64,000 nucleotides of DNA from an uncultured Clostridia bacterium (GTDB taxonomy: Bacteria; Bacillota; Clostridia; Oscillospirales; Oscillospiraceae), in NCBI GenBank assembly GCA_947165595.1, contig CAMVAV010000002.1:1-64000 (forward strand), in the 5' to 3' direction. Positions 1-11,288 of the stretch are shown here, piece after piece (position 1 is the first letter of the stretch; the number at the start of each line of letters is the position of its first letter). Made by a program: the position numbers and the translations under genes. Under the pieces are notes generated by a model. That model did not search any database. It was given only the letters and a program-made list of their open reading frames with translations, and was not told the origin of the DNA.

Positions 1-586
1 AGTGCCGCACGATGGCGGCGTTGCTCTCGAACTGCGCCATGCGCACGTCCTTCACGCCGGAGCCGACGGGCGGGATGCCCTTCGACGCGACGAACACCAG
101 CACGTCGCAGTCGAACAGCCGCGCCGCGTCCACAACCTCCACCTCGGGAAACGCGCCGTAGTCCCACGGGAGCGAAACCTGTCCCATCTCGAACTCCCAG
201 CGGGCGGTGATCTGCTCCGACAGGTCGCAGATGCCGATGCGCCCGATCACGTCGCCGCCGAGAAGCTTGAGTCCCGTCAGCAGCGTCGAGCCGACGTCCC
301 CGATGGCGAGGATATTGACGCGCTTCTTTCCCTTTTTCGGCGGCTCCAGCATCCGCTCCCAGCCGGGGCGGCTGCGGTTGACGACGGTGAGCCGCCCCTC
401 CTCCAGCGCCCGAAGCGCCGCTTCCTCCGGTTCAAAGCGCGGCAGGCGCGAGGCGTCCAGCACGGAAAGGCCGTGCGGCTCCTTCAGCTGGCCGGGATGG
501 TTCGCCCGGAAGCTGCCGCGCCCGAGGACCGGGTCGCCCTCGATGAGGTAAAAGAGGCGTCCGTTCCGTTCGATGATCTCATGCAT
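1..586 (-). CDS. Lactate/malate dehydrogenase-like NAD-binding protein (3' part outside window)
   Basis: Minus-strand translation from ATG at 586: MHEIIERNGRLFYLIEGDPVLGRG...KRVNILAIGDVGSTLLTGLKLLGGDVIGRIGICDLSE...; Rossmann-type GDVGSTLL motif. Start overlaps the stop of the next gene upstream. Confidence 0.7.
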   Translation of the reverse strand, partial: MHEIIERNGRLFYLIEGDPVLGRGSFRANHPGQLKEPHGLSVLDASRLPRFEPEEAALRALEEGRLTVVNRSRPGWERMLEPPKKGKKRVNILAIGDVGSTLLTGLKLLGGDVIGRIGICDLSEQITARWEFEMGQVSLPWDYGAFPEVEVVDAARLFDCDVLVFVASKGIPPVGSGVKDVRMAQFESNAAIVRH

Positions 587-3500
587 AGTCCTGCCCCCTC
601 ATGAGCTGTTCCAGATCGTTTTCCAGATACACCGACGCCGCGAGGCTCGGGTCATAGCGCAGGCACGCCCCCTTGTCGGGGCACAGCGGCAGGATGACCG
701 CCTCGCTGAGCCGGCTGAGCGTCAGGTTGCGCGCGTACTGCTCCCGATACGCCCGCTCCAGCGCCAGCATGACCTCCCGCGCGGACTCGAGGCAGCAGCG
801 GGAGAGCGCGTATACCGCCCGGCCGGAGCACTCGCTTTCAAACGTGGGCGCGGCGTAGGGCAGGATGTGGTTGATCCCCGGCAGCAGCCCCGGCACCGGC
901 GCTTCGGCGCGGCGGACGGTGTTGCCCCCGATGAAGGGGTAGAGCGTGGACTCGATGAACCACTGCCGCAGCGTCGGCACAAAATAGGCGCCGTCCACGG
1001 GGTAGCCCTGCTCGCGCATCAGGTCGCGCCCGTGACCGGAGAGCAGGCCGACGAACACCATGCGGATGTCGATGCCCTCCCGCCGCAGCAGCGGGTCCAG
1101 CGCGCGGATTCGTATGCCGGGGTGCATCACGTCGTCCACGAGGATGACCGGGCGGTCGAAGGACTTGATGATGCGGATCTGGCGCGGAATGGTCGGATAG
1201 TTCGGGAACGCCTCGATCCGGCTCGAGCGGAGGTCCGGCTCGAACACCTTGTCGGTGTGGATGGTCTTGGTGACGGTATTGGGGATCATGCGCCCGCGCA
1301 GCATCTTGCCGAAGGGCACGCACATGCACTCTCCCAGCCTCCGCGGCACGACGGGCGTGTCGGGCACGCGGTTGAACGCCGTGATGCGCTCCAGCAGCCG
1401 CCGATGGATCACGTCGGACGAGAGCGTCAGCACCAGCGAGCCGGGATAGAGCCCCGTCAGCGCGCGCTGCAGGCGGCGGTGCCCGTTTTCAATGGCGGAG
1501 AGCACGCGTTCGTCATGCGCGAGCGGCTCCTGGATCGTGGTCTCCAGATTGCGGATCAGGACCGAGGGCGAGCGCATATCCACCTCCAGCAGCGGCGCGT
1601 CCCCCTCCCGGCGGGAAAAACCCTGGCGCAGCAGCAGCTCCTCCAGCTCCGCGGTCACGCCGCCGCGCGGGCGGCAGAGCGCGTAGACGCAGTCCTCCTG
1701 CAGTGAGCGCGCCAGCACCTCGCTCAAAAGGAGCTGCGCGTCGTCCCCCCGCGCTCGCACGCCGGTGACGAGCAGCGACTTTCCCGCCGCGCGCAGGCGC
1801 ACGCGGTCGCTCAGGGAGGAATCGCCCAGCGCCCCGAACAGCTCCGTCGCGCCGAGGTAGCGCCACGTCAGGAAGCCGGCGCGCCGCCCGCCGCGGCGCA
1901 GGGCGAGCATCTCGTCGCCCTCCCGCGCCGCCTCGGCAAGCTCCGGGCCGTCCGGCTCGCCATAGGGCGCCGTCAGCCACTCGAAGCAGATATCGGCGGC
2001 GGTCAGCAGCGGCTTTTCGTGGCTGTCGCGCAGATAGAGGCCGTTCTGATAGATGAAGTCCTGGATGATGGGGTCGATGAAATGGGAGATGTCGCGGTTC
2101 TGGTCCACGTTCTCCCGGATACGGGTCGAACTGATGTCCTCCAGCTCGGGCGGCAGGCGCAGCTCCATCAGGTCGCCCGTGATGCGGAGCGCCTCCCGGT
2201 CCGGCAGTCCGGTCTGATCGGGGCGGCGGAACACGATGTGGTTGAGCGAGTGGACGGACCACGGCTCCGGCTCCCTGCGGTACGCCGACGCGCCCGCGAT
2301 GACGTCCGCGCCGACGACCAGGTACAACCGCCGCCCGCCGAAGATCGTCCGCAGCCGCCTGAGGTCCGCGGGATTCGCGATGTTGACGGGGATGTCGCTC
2401 GGGAAGAGATAGACGTGGAAATCCCCCGCCACCGACATGTTGATGATCTGGCGGCGCAGCAGGTGCGGCTGCGGCTTCTTCGACCATGAGAACTCGTCCA
2501 CGGCGAGATAGACCTCAAAGCCCATCTCGCGTATTTCCCGCACGATGCCCTTGTGCGAAAGCGTGAAGGGGTCGAAGGTGCCGGGGAAGAACGCGATCTT
2601 GCGCGGGCGCTCGAACCGAAACGCGCCGCGCTCGAGCTTGTGCAGCGTGAGGAAGCGATCTATGTGCGCCAGCGCGGAGGCGCGGTAGAAAAACGTCAGC
2701 GCGTCGGCGTCCGGCGCGGTGTCGACCAAAAACAGCAGCTTGCGGCAGCAGAGCGTGAAAAGCCGCTCCTCCTGCTCCAGCGCGCCGGTGTCGAACAGTT
2801 GCCCGAACACCAGCAGCGCCTCCTGCCGCACCGCCTCGCGGTAGTGGGCGAGCCCCTGCAGCAGCAGCCCGATCAGCTCGTGCCAGCGCTCCGTGTAGCG
2901 CGCCGCCGGCTCGACGAAGCGCCCGCGGTACTCCTCATAGTGCCGCAGCATGACCCCGATCGTGCGCAGCGCGCCCGCGACGGCGCTGTCCGTCGGGGAG
3001 CCCAGCAGGGTCTTGAGCCAGAGCACCTGCTCGTCCAGCTCGCTCGGGTACAGCAGCAGCGCGGTCTGCCCCAGATAGTCGGGGATGTACTTGGAGATGG
3101 CGTACTGTCCCAGCTCGATGCCCTTGCCCAGCTCGACCACGACCTCGTTGCGCTGCTCGCGCCGCAGCAGCGGCAGCACGTCCAGCAGCGCCTGCCCCGC
3201 CGCGTGGCGCACGACCACGCGCTCGGAGACCTTGATGAGGTTGGAAAAGTGCGTGCAGATGTGCAGGATGTTGTCCTTCCCGCTCCGCTCCGCCTGGTCG
3301 CGCAGGATACCGACGCCCACGACCTTGTTGACCCACGGCGTCGCGGTCTTGAGGTTGTCGAGGAAGATCTCCGCGGTGACGTCCTGCTCGAACACCTCGC
3401 GGTAGGCGGACACGTCCTCCCCCGCGCGGCGCAGGATGCGGTAGCGCAGGAACTGCAGCGTCAGGCCCTCTCTCGCGCTCCCCCGCGCGGCGAGCTCCGC

Positions 3501-5303
3501 GATGCGTTTCATCTGCGGATGGTCCTGCGCCAGCGGGCGCTGCGCCTCCTGCAAAAACAGCAGCGCCGCCGTTTGCAGCCGCGTGTCGCCGCAGAGGGCA
3601 AAGTACGCGGCAAACTCGATCAGCTTCGCGCGCGTCTGGTCGCCGTAGTGGTGGGGCGGCAGGCTCTGGATCGCGTCGAGCAGGGTGAACGCCGTGTCCG
3701 GCTCCTTCTCCTCCGGCTTGTCGTAATAGGTCAACAGCACGCCGACGAAGCGCGGCAGCGTCTCCCGCCGTCCGTAGCGCAGCATGGCCGCCACGACGAG
3801 CTTTAGCGTGTAGCCGATGTGCGAGCGCTGCTGGGCGGTGGTCTTGTGGTCGGGGTTGATGATCTTGTCGAGGTACTCCGCCCAGAGGGTGAAGGGCACC
3901 TCCTCCGCGGGGTCGGAGGACGCGTCCTCCGGCAGGCGCTTGCGGTAGACGAGGTGGAACTTCGCGATGATCTGCCCGATCAGCCCCGCCGCCTGACGGC
4001 GGATATCGCCCTCGCGGTGGGTCAGCAGCTCGTAGAGGAAGGCGAGCGCCTGCGTCTTCTGCCGCGCGGACAGATAGGTGCAGTACGCCTCGAAGATGTT
4101 GAGGTAGACGCGCAGCTGCTTCCAGTCGCGGCTGGCGCGCGCCGCCTCGATGATGTTGCCGAAGCGCTGCTCGCCGGAGAGCTGATGCATCAGGCGCAGA
4201 TGGTGCTCCATGGAGAGCAGCATCAGCCGCTCGACGGACTCCTCCGGCGTCATCAGGGCGGGGTCCTTCGCCTCCGCGCTCACGCGCGGCGCGCCGGTCA
4301 GGCCGATGTCCGCGCCGAGCGAGCGGAGGTAGCGCTCAAAGTCCTGCAGCCGGCTGTAGACCAGCTCATAGCGGCGGCGCTTTACCGCGTCGACGTTTTC
4401 GAGCTTCCCGAGGATCACGTCAAAGGCGTCGGCAAGGGAGAAGATCTCCGTCACCTCCCGCCCCTGCGCGTCGCGGCTCTGCTTGCAGCGGACGTCGGCG
4501 TAGATGAGGCACAGCGACTCGGCGGAGAGCGCGTCCAGCTCCAGGTCCCAGGTCGAATGGTTCGAGGCGATGTGGCTGACGGCGTACATCCCGCGCTTTT
4601 CCAGCCAGTACCCCGTGTAGTAGTAGTGCAGGTGCGGCACCGCCTCGCCGGGACGGCAGCCGTATTTGCCGAGGTCGTGCGCCGCGGCGGCGGCGGATAT
4701 GAGTGCGAGGTCGATCTCCTCCCCCGCCTCGCGGACGCCGCGCGCGACGGTCAGCGCGATGTGGTGCACGCCCGCGATATGGCTCAGCGTGCGGTAGGGC
4801 GTCACCTCGTCGCCGAGGCGCATCAGCTCGTAGATGAACTCCCCTCGGAAGGCGGCGAGGAAGCGCTTGTACTCCTCCGCGTGGTCGCAGTCCTCATACT
4901 CCTCCGGTGCGAGAAAGGCGAAGTCGTGCATCGGGTCGAAGGGCAGCGTCCGGCGCTCCCGCTCCAGCAGGAGCTGCAAAACCGTCAAAAACGTCAGCGC
5001 CCCGCGCTCGAAGCCGTAGGCGTCCGGCGCAAAGCGTCCCTGCGGATACATCCGGGCGCGGATAAAATCGTAGCAGAACGCGCACCAGCCCCGCTCCGGC
5101 GCTTTTCCGAGCAGCGGGGCGCAGAGCTCGGCGACGGCGGCGCAGGACAGCCGCTCCCGGATCGGAAGCAGGGCCTCCAGCCGCACGTCGAGCCCCGCCT
5201 CGCGCAGGCTGCGCAGCGCCGCGCGGCGGTCCCGCTCCAGCCCTCTGTCACAAAGCGCGCCCGAAAGCGCGTCCAGCAGCTCGCGCACCGCCTTTTTGCT
5301 CAT
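579..5303 (-). CDS. Giant multidomain protein: HD-type domain, helical repeat region, NadD-like nucleotidyltransferase, GNAT-like region, phosphoribosyltransferase-like domain
   Basis: 1574-aa ORF; SAAAAAHDLGKYG (HD), KIAFFPGTFDPFTLSHKG (nucleotidyltransferase GTFDPxxxxH motif), PVILVDDVMHPG (PRTase-like) in one frame. Confidence 0.85.
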   Translation of the reverse strand: MSKKAVRELLDALSGALCDRGLERDRRAALRSLREAGLDVRLEALLPIRERLSCAAVAELCAPLLGKAPERGWCAFCYDFIRARMYPQGRFAPDAYGFERGALTFLTVLQLLLERERRTLPFDPMHDFAFLAPEEYEDCDHAEEYKRFLAAFRGEFIYELMRLGDEVTPYRTLSHIAGVHHIALTVARGVREAGEEIDLALISAAAAAHDLGKYGCRPGEAVPHLHYYYTGYWLEKRGMYAVSHIASNHSTWDLELDALSAESLCLIYADVRCKQSRDAQGREVTEIFSLADAFDVILGKLENVDAVKRRRYELVYSRLQDFERYLRSLGADIGLTGAPRVSAEAKDPALMTPEESVERLMLLSMEHHLRLMHQLSGEQRFGNIIEAARASRDWKQLRVYLNIFEAYCTYLSARQKTQALAFLYELLTHREGDIRRQAAGLIGQIIAKFHLVYRKRLPEDASSDPAEEVPFTLWAEYLDKIINPDHKTTAQQRSHIGYTLKLVVAAMLRYGRRETLPRFVGVLLTYYDKPEEKEPDTAFTLLDAIQSLPPHHYGDQTRAKLIEFAAYFALCGDTRLQTAALLFLQEAQRPLAQDHPQMKRIAELAARGSAREGLTLQFLRYRILRRAGEDVSAYREVFEQDVTAEIFLDNLKTATPWVNKVVGVGILRDQAERSGKDNILHICTHFSNLIKVSERVVVRHAAGQALLDVLPLLRREQRNEVVVELGKGIELGQYAISKYIPDYLGQTALLLYPSELDEQVLWLKTLLGSPTDSAVAGALRTIGVMLRHYEEYRGRFVEPAARYTERWHELIGLLLQGLAHYREAVRQEALLVFGQLFDTGALEQEERLFTLCCRKLLFLVDTAPDADALTFFYRASALAHIDRFLTLHKLERGAFRFERPRKIAFFPGTFDPFTLSHKGIVREIREMGFEVYLAVDEFSWSKKPQPHLLRRQIINMSVAGDFHVYLFPSDIPVNIANPADLRRLRTIFGGRRLYLVVGADVIAGASAYRREPEPWSVHSLNHIVFRRPDQTGLPDREALRITGDLMELRLPPELEDISSTRIRENVDQNRDISHFIDPIIQDFIYQNGLYLRDSHEKPLLTAADICFEWLTAPYGEPDGPELAEAAREGDEMLALRRGGRRAGFLTWRYLGATELFGALGDSSLSDRVRLRAAGKSLLVTGVRARGDDAQLLLSEVLARSLQEDCVYALCRPRGGVTAELEELLLRQGFSRREGDAPLLEVDMRSPSVLIRNLETTIQEPLAHDERVLSAIENGHRRLQRALTGLYPGSLVLTLSSDVIHRRLLERITAFNRVPDTPVVPRRLGECMCVPFGKMLRGRMIPNTVTKTIHTDKVFEPDLRSSRIEAFPNYPTIPRQIRIIKSFDRPVILVDDVMHPGIRIRALDPLLRREGIDIRMVFVGLLSGHGRDLMREQGYPVDGAYFVPTLRQWFIESTLYPFIGGNTVRRAEAPVPGLLPGINHILPYAAPTFESECSGRAVYALSRCCLESAREVMLALERAYREQYARNLTLSRLSEAVILPLCPDKGACLRYDPSLAASVYLENDLEQLMRGQDYA

Positions 5304-5514
5304 CGTACCGTCCCCGTTTCAAAAAAATAATATTGTATTTTACCATCTTTGGCCGCCGCCGTCAACGAAATCGCGCCGCCGCGGTCCGTTTTTTCCTGCC
5401 GCTCCTCACCCCGGCAAAAAGAAAGCGTGAAAAATCGAAAAATCTTCTTCCCTTTCCGGCGGATCGGTTGTATGATAATGGCGACGACAAACTGACAGAA
5501 ACGGAGAGAACGAC

Positions 5515-6636
5515 ATGGAAAAGGCAAAGGTTTATTTTACCGATTTTCGCACCCAGGTCGGCGTGAACCAGGGCGAGAAGCTGCAAAAGCTCTGCCGTGC
5601 CGCCGGCATCGAAAGCATCGGCTTTGAGGGCAAATTCGCGGCGATCAAGATGCACTTCGGTGAGCTGGGCAACTTCTCCTACCTGCGCCCGAACTACGTC
5701 AGGGCGGTGGCGGACCTGATCCGGGCGCTCGGCGGCAAGCCGTTTTTGACGGACTGCAACACGCTCTACCCCGGCAGCCGCAAGAACGCGGTCGACCATC
5801 TCTACAACGCGGAGGTCAACGGCTTCAACAGCGTCACGACGGGCTGCTACGTCATCATCGCGGACGGCCTCAAGGGCACGGACGAGGCGACGGTCCCCGT
5901 GCCGAACGGCGAGTACTGCAAGGAGGCGTACATCGGCCGCGCGCTCTATGACGCGGACGTGATCGTCTCGCTGACGCACTTCAAGGGACACGAGATGACC
6001 GGCTTCGGCGGCGCGATCAAGAATATCGGCATGGGCGGCGGCAGCCGCGCGGGCAAGATGCAGCAGCACTGCGACGGCAAGCCCACGGTCGACCCGTCGC
6101 TCTGCCGCACATGCAAACGGTGCGCGCGGGAGTGCGGCTCGGACGCGATCTCCTATGACAGCGGCAAGGCGGTGATCGACCAGTCGCTCTGCAAGGGCTG
6201 CGGCCGGTGCATCGGCGCCTGCGCGTTTGACGCGATCTCCTCCGAGCAGGACACGGCGCTCGAGGCGTTGTGCTGCAAGATGGCGGAGTATACGGCGGCG
6301 GTTTTGAGCGGCAAGCCGGCGTTTCACATCAGCCTCATCATGGACGTGTCGCCCAACTGCGACTGCCACGGGGAAAACGACGCGCCGATCCTGCCGAACC
6401 TCGGCATGCTCGCGTCCTTCGACCCGGTCGCGCTCGACCAGGCGTGCGCCGACCTCTGCCTCGCGGCGGAGCCGATCCGCAACAGCCAGCTCGGCGACAA
6501 CCTTGCAAGGCCTGACTGGCACCATCACCACGACTGCTTCCTCGACAGCAACCCGAACGTCCGCTGGAAGGAGACGCTCGCGCACGGCGAAAAGATCGGC
6601 CTCGGCACAAGAGAATACGAGCTGATCCGTATTTAA
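5515..6636 (+). CDS. DUF362 domain-containing iron-sulfur protein
   Basis: CRTCKRCARECGSDAI and CKGCGRCIGACAFDAI 4Fe-4S motifs, THFKGHEMTGFGGAIKNIGMG; DUF362-type architecture. Confidence 0.9.
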   Translation: MEKAKVYFTDFRTQVGVNQGEKLQKLCRAAGIESIGFEGKFAAIKMHFGELGNFSYLRPNYVRAVADLIRALGGKPFLTDCNTLYPGSRKNAVDHLYNAEVNGFNSVTTGCYVIIADGLKGTDEATVPVPNGEYCKEAYIGRALYDADVIVSLTHFKGHEMTGFGGAIKNIGMGGGSRAGKMQQHCDGKPTVDPSLCRTCKRCARECGSDAISYDSGKAVIDQSLCKGCGRCIGACAFDAISSEQDTALEALCCKMAEYTAAVLSGKPAFHISLIMDVSPNCDCHGENDAPILPNLGMLASFDPVALDQACADLCLAAEPIRNSQLGDNLARPDWHHHHDCFLDSNPNVRWKETLAHGEKIGLGTREYELIRI

Positions 6637-6731: not shown

Positions 6732-8135
6732 CTACGCCTCCCGCTTCGCCTTCAGCCACGCCTCGTATCCCGCCGGGATGGACGTGTAGCGCAGCAGGCA
6801 GCCGTCCTCCGTGCGCTTGACCACCTTGGCGAACAGCTCGCCGCCCGCCTCGAGCTTGACGTTGTCATAGACGGCGAGCTCCGTGCCCGTGTCCAGCACC
6901 GCCCCGTCGTGCGCTACGGCGACGATGCCGCCGTAATAGGACTTCGCGCCGCCGTGTTTTCCGTCGAGCCGGCGGAAGCACACGGGGATGGGACGCTCCA
7001 GCGCGCGCGGCACCGTGTCCCTTGTCCTGACCGTCACGTTGTACGGCGCGCCTATGCCCGTCACCTGCGAAAGCACCAGCTCGCCCTGCACGCCCTTGGG
7101 ATAGACGGTCATCTCCTGCGCGATCTCCAGCTCCGCCGCGCAGAGCCTCCGCGTCATCGGGGAGAGCAGCACCTGTCCGCCCACCGTATAGCTTTCGATC
7201 CTGCCGCAGAGGTTGACGTGGCTGCCGACCACGCCGTACTTGGTGCGCTTTTCCGAGCCGATGTTGCCGACGACGACCTCGCCGGTGTTGACGCCGATGC
7301 CCATTTCCAGCTCCGGGTAGCCCTGTCGGGCGTTCCAGACGTTTACCGCCTCCATCTGCGCCTCCATCTCCAGCGCCGCCGCGACGGCGTCCTCCGCGTG
7401 CGTCTCCGAAGGGACGGGCGCGCCGAAGATCGCCAGGATCCCGTCGCCGATGAATTCGATAATCGTGCCGCCGCGCGCCTCGATCACCTCGGTCATCTCG
7501 CCGAGGTAATGGTTGAGCATCGTGATGAGCTCGTTCGCGTCCATGCGCTCGCTCATGGCGGCGAAGCCGCGCAGATCGCTCATAAGGATGGAGAGCGTCC
7601 GCTTTTTCCCGCCGAGGGCAAGCCCGTCCGGCGTCTCGAGCAGCTGCCGCACGATCTCGTCGGAGAGAAAGCGGCCGAAGGTCTCGCTCAGGAGCTTGTT
7701 GCGCAGCTCCAGCTGCCCGTTCAGGGCGCGGATGCGCTCCATCGCACGCACGGCGTCGCGCAGGCCGGCCAGCTCCGTCATGTCGCTGAGCACGACGATG
7801 ACGCCGACGCTCCTGCCCTCGTCCGTCAGAAAGGAGGTCACCATGCGCAGCTGCCTGGTCTCCGTCCCTGTGAAGTAGGGCACGATCGCCTCGTGCGGCC
7901 GCTCCCGGTCGTAGACCGCGTCGAGCACCGTCTGCGCGAAGGCGTCGTTCTCCTCACAGTCGAAAAAGCACTCGCCGAAGCTCCTGTGCAGAAGCTCCGC
8001 TTCCTCCCGGGACAGAATCCGCAGAGCGGAGGGATTCAGGCAGATGATCTTACCGTCGAAGCCGACGACCATCACTCCCTCCGACATATCCCGCATGATG
8101 CTGTTTCGGATCAGCTCGCTCTTGTCCGCCATCAA
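6732..8135 (-). CDS. PAS + class III adenylate/guanylate cyclase domain protein
   Basis: LSILMSDLRGFAAMSERM, IEFIGDGILAIFGAP, GIGVNTGEVVVGNIGS: class III cyclase motifs with N-terminal PAS-like region. Confidence 0.9.
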   Translation of the reverse strand: MMADKSELIRNSIMRDMSEGVMVVGFDGKIICLNPSALRILSREEAELLHRSFGECFFDCEENDAFAQTVLDAVYDRERPHEAIVPYFTGTETRQLRMVTSFLTDEGRSVGVIVVLSDMTELAGLRDAVRAMERIRALNGQLELRNKLLSETFGRFLSDEIVRQLLETPDGLALGGKKRTLSILMSDLRGFAAMSERMDANELITMLNHYLGEMTEVIEARGGTIIEFIGDGILAIFGAPVPSETHAEDAVAAALEMEAQMEAVNVWNARQGYPELEMGIGVNTGEVVVGNIGSEKRTKYGVVGSHVNLCGRIESYTVGGQVLLSPMTRRLCAAELEIAQEMTVYPKGVQGELVLSQVTGIGAPYNVTVRTRDTVPRALERPIPVCFRRLDGKHGGAKSYYGGIVAVAHDGAVLDTGTELAVYDNVKLEAGGELFAKVVKRTEDGCLLRYTSIPAGYEAWLKAKREA

Positions 8136-8171: not shown

Positions 8172-11100
8172 TCACACCTTCGCCTGCGCTTCCTCGTCCT
8201 GCTTGCTGCGGATGTTCTCGATGTTCTCCATGCTGCCGCCGCCGTGGTCGTCCTTGGCGCGCAGCTCGCCCTTGTCCACCAGACGCAAAAACGCGTCCAC
8301 CACGTCCGGCTCCAGCTGCGTGCCGGAGACCTCGCGGATGATGGAGACGACCTTGTCGAAGTTCATACGGTTGCGGTAGGGGCGGTTGGAGTACATCGCG
8401 TCGAAGCAGTCCGCCACCGCGATGATCTGCGCCACGCGCGGGATCTCGTCGCCCTTGAGATGATTGGGATAGCCCCGCCCGTCCGGGCGCTCGTGGTGCG
8501 ACTGCGCGCCGACGGACAGCTCCGGCATGATGCTGATGTCCTTGAGTACCTCATAGCCCTGGGAGGTGTGGGACTTGATCTTTTCAAATTCCTCGTCCGT
8601 CAGCTTTCCGTTCTTGTTGAGCACCTCCGGCGGTACGCCGATCTTGCCGATGTCGTGCAGCAGGGCGATGCGGTAGTATTTCTCCACCGTCTCCTTGTCG
8701 TACCCCAGCTCCTCCGCGAGCCGCGCCGTGTATTGGGCGACGCGCGTGGAGTGGCCGTTGGTGTACTTGTCCTTCATATCGATCACCTTCGCGAACGCCT
8801 CGGTGATCTCGCGGATAAAGGTCATGCTCTCCTGCTGCTTCTTTTCCAGCTTCTGCGTCTTTCCGTGGACATAGAGCTGCACGCACGCCGCCAAAAGCAG
8901 CAGCGCCAGCAGACCCGAGACGATAAAAAACCACGTCTGCTCGTAAAACGCCTTCTCCTTGACGATCCGGACGGACACCTCCTTGTTTCCGCGTCCCATG
9001 GAATCGCGAAGCTGGATCACAAAGTCGTAGGTCCCGCCGCGCAGATTCGTGTAGTCCACCGGCACCAGCTCGCTGCGGCTGACGGTGGTGCGGTTTTGCT
9101 CGAAGCCCTCCAGCCGGTAGCTTACCTGCGGGTTGCTCAGGGAATAGCTGAAGACATAACTGTAGACCGTCAGCTTCCGCACGTCGGAGGGAATCGTGAA
9201 CGAGCCGTCCGCGTCGGGATAGACCCGCTCCCCGTCCGTATCGAGGAAGGGAACGGAGACCTTGAGGTCGTTGACGTTTTCAAAGGTGGCTTCGATATTG
9301 ACCTTGCAGACGCCGGTGCCTCCCGCGATATACAGGTCGCCGTCCGCGCTCAGATCGCTGTAGGAGTTCGCCGTCGCGATGCAGGGCAGGCCGTTGGCAA
9401 TGCTGTAATAGACCGGGTCGATCTCGCCGTTGGCGACCAGCTCCTCCGTCGGGACGACGTAGATGCCGTTGCTCGAGAGCACCCACATGTCGCCCTTGCT
9501 GTTCTCGTAGAGGTCGAAGTTGTTCGTGTAGGGGAACTTCCGCACCGTCGTCACCTCATAGTCGGGGGTCATGTAGGCGATGCCGCTGCTGGCGACGATC
9601 CAGATGATGTCCCGCTTCGGATCGTGCTTGAGACGCATCACGATGTCCGAGGGCAGCCCGTCCTCCACGTTGATGTTCCGGGCGCCTCTCCCGTCGATGA
9701 TGTAGATGCCGCCGCCGTTGCTGCCGAGGACAATGTCGCCGTTCAGCCCCTCCTCGACGCAAAGGCTCTCCGTGTCGGCGATGCCGTTTTCCTCGCCGTA
9801 GGAGGCGGTGACGCGGTCCCCCCGGATCACGTTCACGCCACCGGTCAGCGCGACGAGGATGCTCCCGTCCTCCCTTTCGCAGACGGAGCGCAGGCTGTTG
9901 GACAGCAGGCCGTCGTCCTGCGTGAAGGCGGTCAGCTCGCCGCGGTCATAGCGCAGCAGCCCGTATTTGCGCCAGGTGGATATCCACAGACGCCCGCGGC
10001 TGTCGCGGATGACGGAGCGGATGCGGCAGCCGTCGAGCAGCGCGATCAGGTCGTCCGCACCCAGGTCCGCGCCGGAGGCGGTCTCCGCCTTCGTCAGCGG
10101 GAGCTCGGACACCGGGCCGTTCCCGTCCAGCACGATCAGTCCCCCGTCCGTGCCGACGAACAGCTTCCCGTCGGACACACAGGTGGAATTTGCCACCGTC
10201 TCGGGCAGATCGTAACGCGCGAACAGGTCGGAAAACCGGTTCGGCACCACCTTCATCACGCCCTGCCGCGTGGAGGTAAACCAGAGATTGCCCTGATAGT
10301 CCGTCATCACGTGGCCGACGTTGCTGCTCATCGGCAGGTTCTCCAGCACGCGGAACTTTCCGTTCTCCAGCACGCCGATGCCGTTCGAGGCGCAAATCCA
10401 GAGCTTGCCGTCGATGTACTCCATCTGCTGGATATAGCTCAGCGGCTGAATGTCGATCGGCTTCAGGTCCGTGAGCGTGTCCCCGAGGGAGGCGCGGTAA
10501 AAGCAGAAATCCCCGGCCTCAAAATAGACCTTTCCCGGATGCTCCGGATCGGGCAGGATGGAGCCCGCGCCCTTGACCGGGCTGTCCTCCACGCTGAAGA
10601 AGCTCAGCAGCGCGCCGTCCTTTATCCTCAGCATATCGCCCAGGTCCGTCGTCCCGTAGAGGACCCCGTCGTTTCCCGCCCGAAGGTTTCGCATGTTCGC
10701 CTCGGCGAGGGCCTCGTCCTCCATCATGGCGAGCTTCCCCTCCGGGTCGATCGTCGCAATGCCGCAGGTGGTGGCGACGTAGATCGTCCCGTTTGGATCC
10801 TCCGCGATGGCGCGGGTGTGGGCGGAGCGCATGCCGTCCAGCTTGCCCCACATGCGCAGCTCTCCGCGCTCCATGACCGCGACGCCGTTGTCGTTCGTCC
10901 CGATCCACAGGCGGTCGCGGCTGTCCACATAGAGGCACTTCACGCTGCTCAGCCCCGTGGTGGAATCCATGCGCACGAAGGTGTTGCCGTCGTAGCGGAT
11001 CAAGCCGCCGTAGCTGCCGATCCACAGAAAGCCGTCGCCCGTCTCGGCGATGGCGTTCGCCTCCGAGGTCGGCAGGCCGTTTGTGTTGTTGTACAGCACC

Positions 11101-11288
11101 GCCGAAAAGCCCTCCGTGCGTCCCGTCGGATCGACGGAGACGGGGCGGTTTTCGGTGCCCGCGGCATTGAGCGCCTGCGGTCCCGCGCCGAAGCACGGCG
11201 TCTGCAGCGCGAAAAGCAGGCACAGCAGCGCGCAGAGCACAAAGCGGCGCAGGCCGTCCGTTTGAAGCTTTTCTTTCCGTCTGTTCAT
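8172..11288 (-). CDS. Two-component-regulator-propeller / Y_Y_Y sensor with C-terminal HD-GYP phosphodiesterase domain
   Basis: Repeated propeller motifs (DGFLWIGSYGGLIRYDG, DRLWIGTNDNGV), TM segment, then HSTRVAQYTARLAEELG..LLHDIGKIGVPPEVL..HHERPDGRGYP (HD-GYP). Confidence 0.92.
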   Translation of the reverse strand: MNRRKEKLQTDGLRRFVLCALLCLLFALQTPCFGAGPQALNAAGTENRPVSVDPTGRTEGFSAVLYNNTNGLPTSEANAIAETGDGFLWIGSYGGLIRYDGNTFVRMDSTTGLSSVKCLYVDSRDRLWIGTNDNGVAVMERGELRMWGKLDGMRSAHTRAIAEDPNGTIYVATTCGIATIDPEGKLAMMEDEALAEANMRNLRAGNDGVLYGTTDLGDMLRIKDGALLSFFSVEDSPVKGAGSILPDPEHPGKVYFEAGDFCFYRASLGDTLTDLKPIDIQPLSYIQQMEYIDGKLWICASNGIGVLENGKFRVLENLPMSSNVGHVMTDYQGNLWFTSTRQGVMKVVPNRFSDLFARYDLPETVANSTCVSDGKLFVGTDGGLIVLDGNGPVSELPLTKAETASGADLGADDLIALLDGCRIRSVIRDSRGRLWISTWRKYGLLRYDRGELTAFTQDDGLLSNSLRSVCEREDGSILVALTGGVNVIRGDRVTASYGEENGIADTESLCVEEGLNGDIVLGSNGGGIYIIDGRGARNINVEDGLPSDIVMRLKHDPKRDIIWIVASSGIAYMTPDYEVTTVRKFPYTNNFDLYENSKGDMWVLSSNGIYVVPTEELVANGEIDPVYYSIANGLPCIATANSYSDLSADGDLYIAGGTGVCKVNIEATFENVNDLKVSVPFLDTDGERVYPDADGSFTIPSDVRKLTVYSYVFSYSLSNPQVSYRLEGFEQNRTTVSRSELVPVDYTNLRGGTYDFVIQLRDSMGRGNKEVSVRIVKEKAFYEQTWFFIVSGLLALLLLAACVQLYVHGKTQKLEKKQQESMTFIREITEAFAKVIDMKDKYTNGHSTRVAQYTARLAEELGYDKETVEKYYRIALLHDIGKIGVPPEVLNKNGKLTDEEFEKIKSHTSQGYEVLKDISIMPELSVGAQSHHERPDGRGYPNHLKGDEIPRVAQIIAVADCFDAMYSNRPYRNRMNFDKVVSIIREVSGTQLEPDVVDAFLRLVDKGELRAKDDHGGGSMENIENIRSKQDEEAQAKV

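Follow-up and report, generated by a model that had tools for sequence, protein, structure and literature searches.

A three-gene module encoding a 1574-residue HD-HEAT-nucleotidyltransferase-PRTase-like protein and two redox-type partners suggests a still undescribed nucleotide or cofactor pathway in Clostridia of the gut and rumen

Results and Discussion

Organization of the locus

The window analysed in this study is a 64-kb stretch (64,000 nucleotides) from an uncultured Clostridia bacterium. Near its start lies a very long open reading frame on the minus strand, hereafter called BIG, which runs into a lactate/malate dehydrogenase (LDH/MDH)-like gene. The features assigned at this locus, with the evidence used for each, are as follows:

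579..5303, minus strand: BIG, an HD-HEAT-NMNAT-(GNAT-like)-PRTase protein of 1574 aa and gene 1 of the module (ORF, full-length homologs, dN/dS)
5337..5365, minus strand: sigma-70-like promoter TTGACG-N17-TAAAAT, directly upstream of the BIG ATG (10 of 12 consensus matches; mean of 0.0 in shuffles)
4299..4907, minus strand: HD domain, residues 133-335 (Pfam HD near its cut-off; ligand residues)
2628..4298, minus strand: HEAT-repeat solenoid, residues 336-892 (structure model; Foldseek and VIA; Pfam HEAT)
2028..2606, minus strand: NadD/NMNAT-type nucleotidyltransferase, residues 900-1092 (CTP_transf_like above its cut-off; NadD fold match; catalytic residues)
1539..2027, minus strand: GNAT-like region, residues 1093-1255 (topology only, from the secondary structure of the model)
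864..1538, minus strand: type I PRTase-like domain whose PRPP loop is modified, residues 1256-1480 (Foldseek; Pribosyltran; acidic pair)
2..586, minus strand: first 195 aa of the LDH/MDH-like second gene, cut by the contig start (conserved operon and co-occurrence)

BIG starts with an ATG, and its 1574-aa translation contains GTFDPFTLSHKG as well as VILVDDVMHPG. The stop codon occupies positions 581-579 and the ATG of the LDH/MDH-like gene lies at 586, such that the two genes overlap by 8 bp; the coordinates and the overlap agree with the initial annotation. Homologs from the same genus were full-length and 82-85% identical, and phylum-wide homologs (32-65% identity) had an equal architecture; across Clostridia, homologs at 32-85% identity were single ORFs of 1550-1670 aa. 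Moreover, dN/dS was about 0.16-0.24 when BIG was compared with four same-genus homologs by the Nei-Gojobori method. The full-length homologs and purifying selection rule out a chance ORF or a frameshift-fusion artefact, and these data, combined with the promoter-like site upstream, indicate that BIG is a real gene. In an alignment of 88 sequences, the most conserved regions of BIG were the cores of its HD, NMNAT and PRTase domains.

The N-terminal half combines a di-metal-type HD domain with a HEAT solenoid

The HD domain of BIG scored 17.6-19.2 bits with Pfam HD, below the cut-off of 22. The ligand residues H175, H209, D210, H226, H249 and D270 were invariant in 88 of 88 sequences, and constitute the di-metal ligand set H...HD...H...H...D, in agreement with the dinuclear HD motif (PMC8177086). 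By inspection, the order of these ligands is also that of the host YqeK. A profile comparison of the BIG HD domain with host YqeK (hhalign) gave E 0.048 over 39 columns, which is not significant, and YqeK models were absent from the profile matches of BIG. Among NCBIfam models, the HD domain was best matched in 33 of 33 members (E 2e-7) by the HD part of NF045665, the DVU_1551-family NTP transferase. Like BIG, proteins of that family carry a nucleotidyltransferase together with an HD domain; however, BIG reached 30 bits where the cut-off is 315, the HD part alone aligned, and the nucleotidyltransferase fold of NF045665 differs from that of BIG. The HEAT solenoid was modelled with confidence (pLDDT 88.8) and resembled HEAT/ARM proteins in both Foldseek and VIA searches; Pfam HEAT was detected in 21 of 33 BIG members.

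The nucleotidyltransferase domain is of the NadD type but is not the housekeeping NadD

In structure comparison, the NMNAT-type domain matched NadD (4ymi_B) with a Z of 15.3 and an rmsd of 3.1 over 187 aligned residues, whereas the match to CoaD was lower (Z about 10.9). VIA structure matches of the C-terminal half covered the NadD part alone and barely tested the PRTase and GNAT folds. The NadD-type fold is well supported. H917, S1058, S1059, I1062 and R1063 were present in 88 of 88 sequences, consistent with the (H/T)xGH and ISSTxIR motifs; the former appears in BIG within GTFDPF(T/S)xSH, the G of xGH being Ser in 84 of 88. The top PDB profile match of this domain (E 2e-9) was the uncharacterised NadD-like protein of the PRK08887/VPA0413 type (PDB 3h05), which, unlike BIG, is a stand-alone, unfused protein of 177 aa. 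Neither the NCBIfam NadD equivalog (34.4 bits, cut-off 150) nor TIGR00482 (30.9 bits, cut-off 112.45) reached its cut-off on BIG. The host NadD has a Trp, the residue that stacks on the base, at a position where BIG has a Tyr in 86 of 88 sequences.

Contig C123 of the host genome (locus L015, about 1486-2700) also carries a canonical NadD-YqeK fusion, downstream of RdgB/HAM1-like and YhbY-like genes. BIG as the housekeeping NadD is therefore ruled out, and the module is not the housekeeping NAD supply. A role in nucleotide or NAD-related metabolism, as proposed initially, remains the best guess, but with the canonical enzyme present there is no obvious need for BIG in ordinary synthesis or salvage of NAD.

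The NadD-YqeK fusion of JCVI-Syn3A (JCVISYN3A_0380), in which the YqeK domain hydrolyses the wrong products of the fused NadD, provides the best mechanistic precedent for an enzyme of this kind (PMC9426524). Like BIG, NadD-YqeK unites an NadD-type nucleotidyltransferase and a di-metal-type HD hydrolase in one polypeptide, with an HD ligand order that is alike by inspection. In BIG, however, the HD domain is N-terminal and lies beyond a HEAT solenoid, a PRTase-like domain is present, the chain is 1574 aa long, and there are two strict redox partner genes.

The pairing of a nucleotidyltransferase with an HD site, next to a solenoid of a protein-docking fold and with constant redox partners, would also be in keeping with modification of a macromolecule, for example by adding AMP to, and removing it from, a protein or an RNA that docks on the solenoid, to regulate those partners. 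We consider this improbable: the NadD-type fold normally takes small mononucleotides, Tyr at the position of the stacking Trp is nearly constant, and a PRTase-like domain would be superfluous.

The C-terminal part contains a PRTase-like domain with an altered PRPP loop

The PRTase-like domain matched B. subtilis xanthine phosphoribosyltransferase (PDB 1y0b, 6w1i) in Foldseek with prob 1.00, E 5e-3 and TMt 0.45-0.47; the two share the DD of the PRPP motif and appear to share a type I PRTase-like fold. Pfam Pribosyltran was detected in 4 of 34 BIG members. D1390 (87/88), D1391 (86/88) and R1398 (87/88) were strongly conserved. In contrast to the canonical DDxxxTGxT, the PRPP loop of BIG reads DDxxHxGxR: the TGxT that canonically follows the acidic pair was replaced by xGxR in 87 of 88 sequences and by xGRT in one divergent member (L041). 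Compared with xanthine phosphoribosyltransferase, TGxT has become (P/S)GxR, and a family-level sequence match was not obtained (E 1.3). Because canonical TGxT is missing, the PRTase-like domain may be a binding domain only, and activity on PRPP is not assured. With this modified loop, the PRTase assignment rests on weaker fold evidence than does the NadD-type fold.

Between these two domains, residues 1093-1255 showed a GNAT-like order of strands and helices in the model. No GNAT family or PDB sequence match was found for this region, and a structure search gave no clean match; nor did the alignment of BIG homologs contain a conserved acetyl-CoA loop of the form (Q/R)xxGx(G/A). This was also the fastest-evolving and least conserved folded domain of BIG. 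Thus, of the domains named in the initial annotation, the HD domain, helical (HEAT) repeats, NadD-type nucleotidyltransferase and PRTase-like domain were borne out, while the GNAT label is reduced to a resemblance in fold topology.

BIG forms a three-gene operon with two redox-type partners

The LDH/MDH-like gene is cut by the start of contig C2, which coincides with the start of the window; another contig of this genome, C29, carries its remainder and a third gene at one end. The LDH/MDH-like protein gave a weak Ldh_1_N match (17-22 bits, cut-off 27). Its D121, R182, R256 and H280 were invariant; by analogy with known LDH, they would be the Asp of the Rossmann region, a pair of substrate-type Arg and the catalytic His. 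Met253 was invariant where the Asp of the catalytic dyad aligns, in a part of the alignment that is approximate. The protein thus resembles lactate/malate dehydrogenase in its Rossmann region, its substrate-position His and Arg and its NAD-ribose Asp, but differs in having Met for the dyad Asp, an N-terminal extension of ~80-120 aa, and scores far below the family cut-offs. The third gene encodes a flavoprotein of the NADPH-dependent FMN reductase type (FMN_red, 59.1 bits, Pfam cut-off 24) with four invariant cysteines in the pattern CxxCx4Cx8C.

The order of the operon is BIG, the LDH/MDH-like gene and the four-cysteine FMN reductase gene; the gaps have medians of 7 and 14 bp. The LDH-like gene followed BIG on the same strand at 67 of 72 loci, and the flavoprotein gene did so at 63 of 72; these 72 loci are those with at least 2 kb downstream among the best-scoring matches, and many are close relatives. 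The initial annotation had proposed a two-gene pair; the link to the LDH/MDH-like gene is indeed conserved, but the unit is a three-gene module. Clustering of neighbours revealed two partners only and no conserved fourth gene; neighbour cluster 3 looks like an antisense reading of the dehydrogenase gene. At six loci (L046, L049, L057, L058, L060 and L086), unrelated genes, including an MFS-like transporter and a DNA-binding regulator, lay between operon members. Such intervening genes vary by genome, and the three genes stay together. Riboswitch control was discounted, as Rfam matches were absent from the 64-kb window and from beside the operon at the six loci searched for them.

Because the 72 loci are top matches and many are closely related, co-occurrence tests carry more weight than the order count. 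Among 398 genomes drawn across the phylum and called with strict thresholds, all three genes were present in the same 8, belonging to 8 genera, and none of them was present in the other 390. In one of the 8 carriers (G747), BIG was on a different contig from the other two genes. Of 18 genomes of the genus, 9 carried all three, and these were the same 9 for each gene. The operon structure and co-occurrence show that BIG is partnered with the LDH/MDH-like protein and the flavoprotein.

The nature of the partners bears on two other explanations. One is that BIG is a bifunctional signalling enzyme like RelA/SpoT or GlnD: a nucleotide messenger would be made by the NMNAT-type domain and destroyed by the HD domain, with the PRTase-like domain as a sensor of PRPP or of a nucleotide and the redox proteins as effectors or co-sensors. 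The presence on one chain of a synthetase-type and a hydrolase-type site that are fully conserved, a modified PRPP loop that suits a sensor, and a large HEAT scaffold would all fit. Both strict partners, however, are metabolic proteins of a redox type and not receptors or transcription factors, and no messenger-binding partner recurred among the neighbours of BIG; we regard this explanation as unlikely, though the strongest of the alternatives to a biosynthetic role. The other is repair or recycling of nicotinamide (or flavin) dinucleotides that are damaged or wrong, whereby the HD and NMNAT-type domains would break and remake the dinucleotide, the mononucleotide would be handled by the PRTase domain, and redox repair would fall to the LDH-like and flavin proteins. 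This draws on the proofreading precedent of NadD-YqeK (PMC9426524), on the NAD-type Rossmann residues of the LDH-like partner and on FMN_red in the third protein. Yet presence in half of the species of one genus is unusually patchy for core repair, and the genome already has NadD-YqeK, which makes a repair role rather unlikely.

The module is patchily distributed and appears to have been transferred between phyla

A scan of 84,980 species genomes yielded at least 565 BIG-related stretches, 80 of which were retrieved. Carriers include Pseudoflavonifractor, Oscillibacter, Lawsonibacter and Faecalispora; Acetoanaerobium noterae, a cultured representative, has an identical compact operon at 34% identity. 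The module was also found at 68-70% identity in five rumen Chloroflexi/Anaerolineaceae bins (L046, L048, L049, L051 and L078), with the gene order kept. In the 88-sequence tree, these five formed one fully supported clade deep inside Clostridia; in this FastTree tree the root and long branches are unsure, and the Chloroflexi nesting falls in a well-sampled part. The genomes are metagenome bins, in which mis-binning of single contigs is possible, yet five separate bins contributed to the one clade. Given the nesting and the retained gene order, the simplest reading is that rumen Chloroflexi acquired the whole module from Clostridia by horizontal transfer.

The patchiness within one genus and the nested Chloroflexi copies could also suggest an anti-phage or other conflict system. 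This is very unlikely: PADLOC returned 0 matches for all three proteins (its library being limited to described systems), viral contigs and phages were without match, a toxin-like effector is absent, and the module is highly conserved and constant in composition. The same searches of viral contigs and phages rule out BIG as a phage gene. A plasmid gene is likewise rejected, as the single match in a plasmid collection was a 2.63-Mb record resembling a chromosome. This record (NZ_CP154629.1, L144), circular and assigned to Acetoanaerobium noterae as plasmid pTPELB2, seems to be a mislabelled chromosome.

A proposed function for the module

Taken together, these data suggest that Clostridia of the gut and rumen have a nucleotide or cofactor pathway that is still undescribed. 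We tentatively favor a scaffolded enzyme: BIG would make a mononucleotide, adenylylate it, edit the product and feed two dedicated redox partners. The PRTase-like domain would make or bind a base-ribose-5-phosphate. The NadD/NMNAT-type domain would then join this mononucleotide to a nucleotidyl group, in all likelihood the AMP of ATP, giving a dinucleotide. The N-terminal HD domain may hydrolyse surplus or wrong product, as YqeK does for NadD; this editing step is proposed because NadD-YqeK likewise has a nucleotidyltransferase and an editing HD domain on one chain. The HEAT solenoid might dock the partners or keep the active sites together, and the LDH/MDH-like protein and the four-cysteine flavoprotein would use, reduce or modify the product. 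Several points count against the scaffolded enzyme: the altered PRPP loop, Met in place of the dyad Asp in the partner, the host's own NadD-YqeK, and a YqeK profile match that is not significant.

A more specific and less probable version is that the product is an orthogonal NAD-like dinucleotide (or a dinucleotide messenger), which BIG would build from base, PRPP and ATP with editing, which the two partners would be dedicated to, and whose module would spread horizontally among gut and rumen anaerobes. If a non-canonical dinucleotide is made, the module would give common gut anaerobes a natural and orthogonal route for a cofactor or for signalling.

A search of the open literature returned no description of the BIG architecture or of the three-gene set, and the suggestion of an undescribed multifunctional enzyme stands, a characterised ortholog not having been found. 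Ter-system and jumbo-phage gene sets also group PRTase (and NMNAT) genes, and there a nucleotide derivative or NAD is made; neither an HD-HEAT-NMNAT-PRTase fusion nor LDH-like and FMN_red partners were found in that account (PMC7824862). Each domain of BIG comes from a known superfamily, and the three-gene system appears undescribed. A strictly co-inherited set of three genes in which a single 1574-aa chain has two or more nucleotide active sites that seem intact is a rare and directly testable arrangement.

Other genes in the window

Upstream of BIG and divergent from it, a plus-strand gene (5515-6636) encodes a DUF362 protein with two 4Fe-4S motifs. Farther along, a minus-strand gene (6732-8135) encodes a PAS and adenylate/guanylate cyclase protein. 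It directly follows a gene on the same strand (8172-11288) for a sensor that has a beta-propeller (Reg_prop/Y_Y_Y) and a phosphodiesterase domain of the HD-GYP type; the two genes possibly constitute a cyclic-nucleotide signalling pair.
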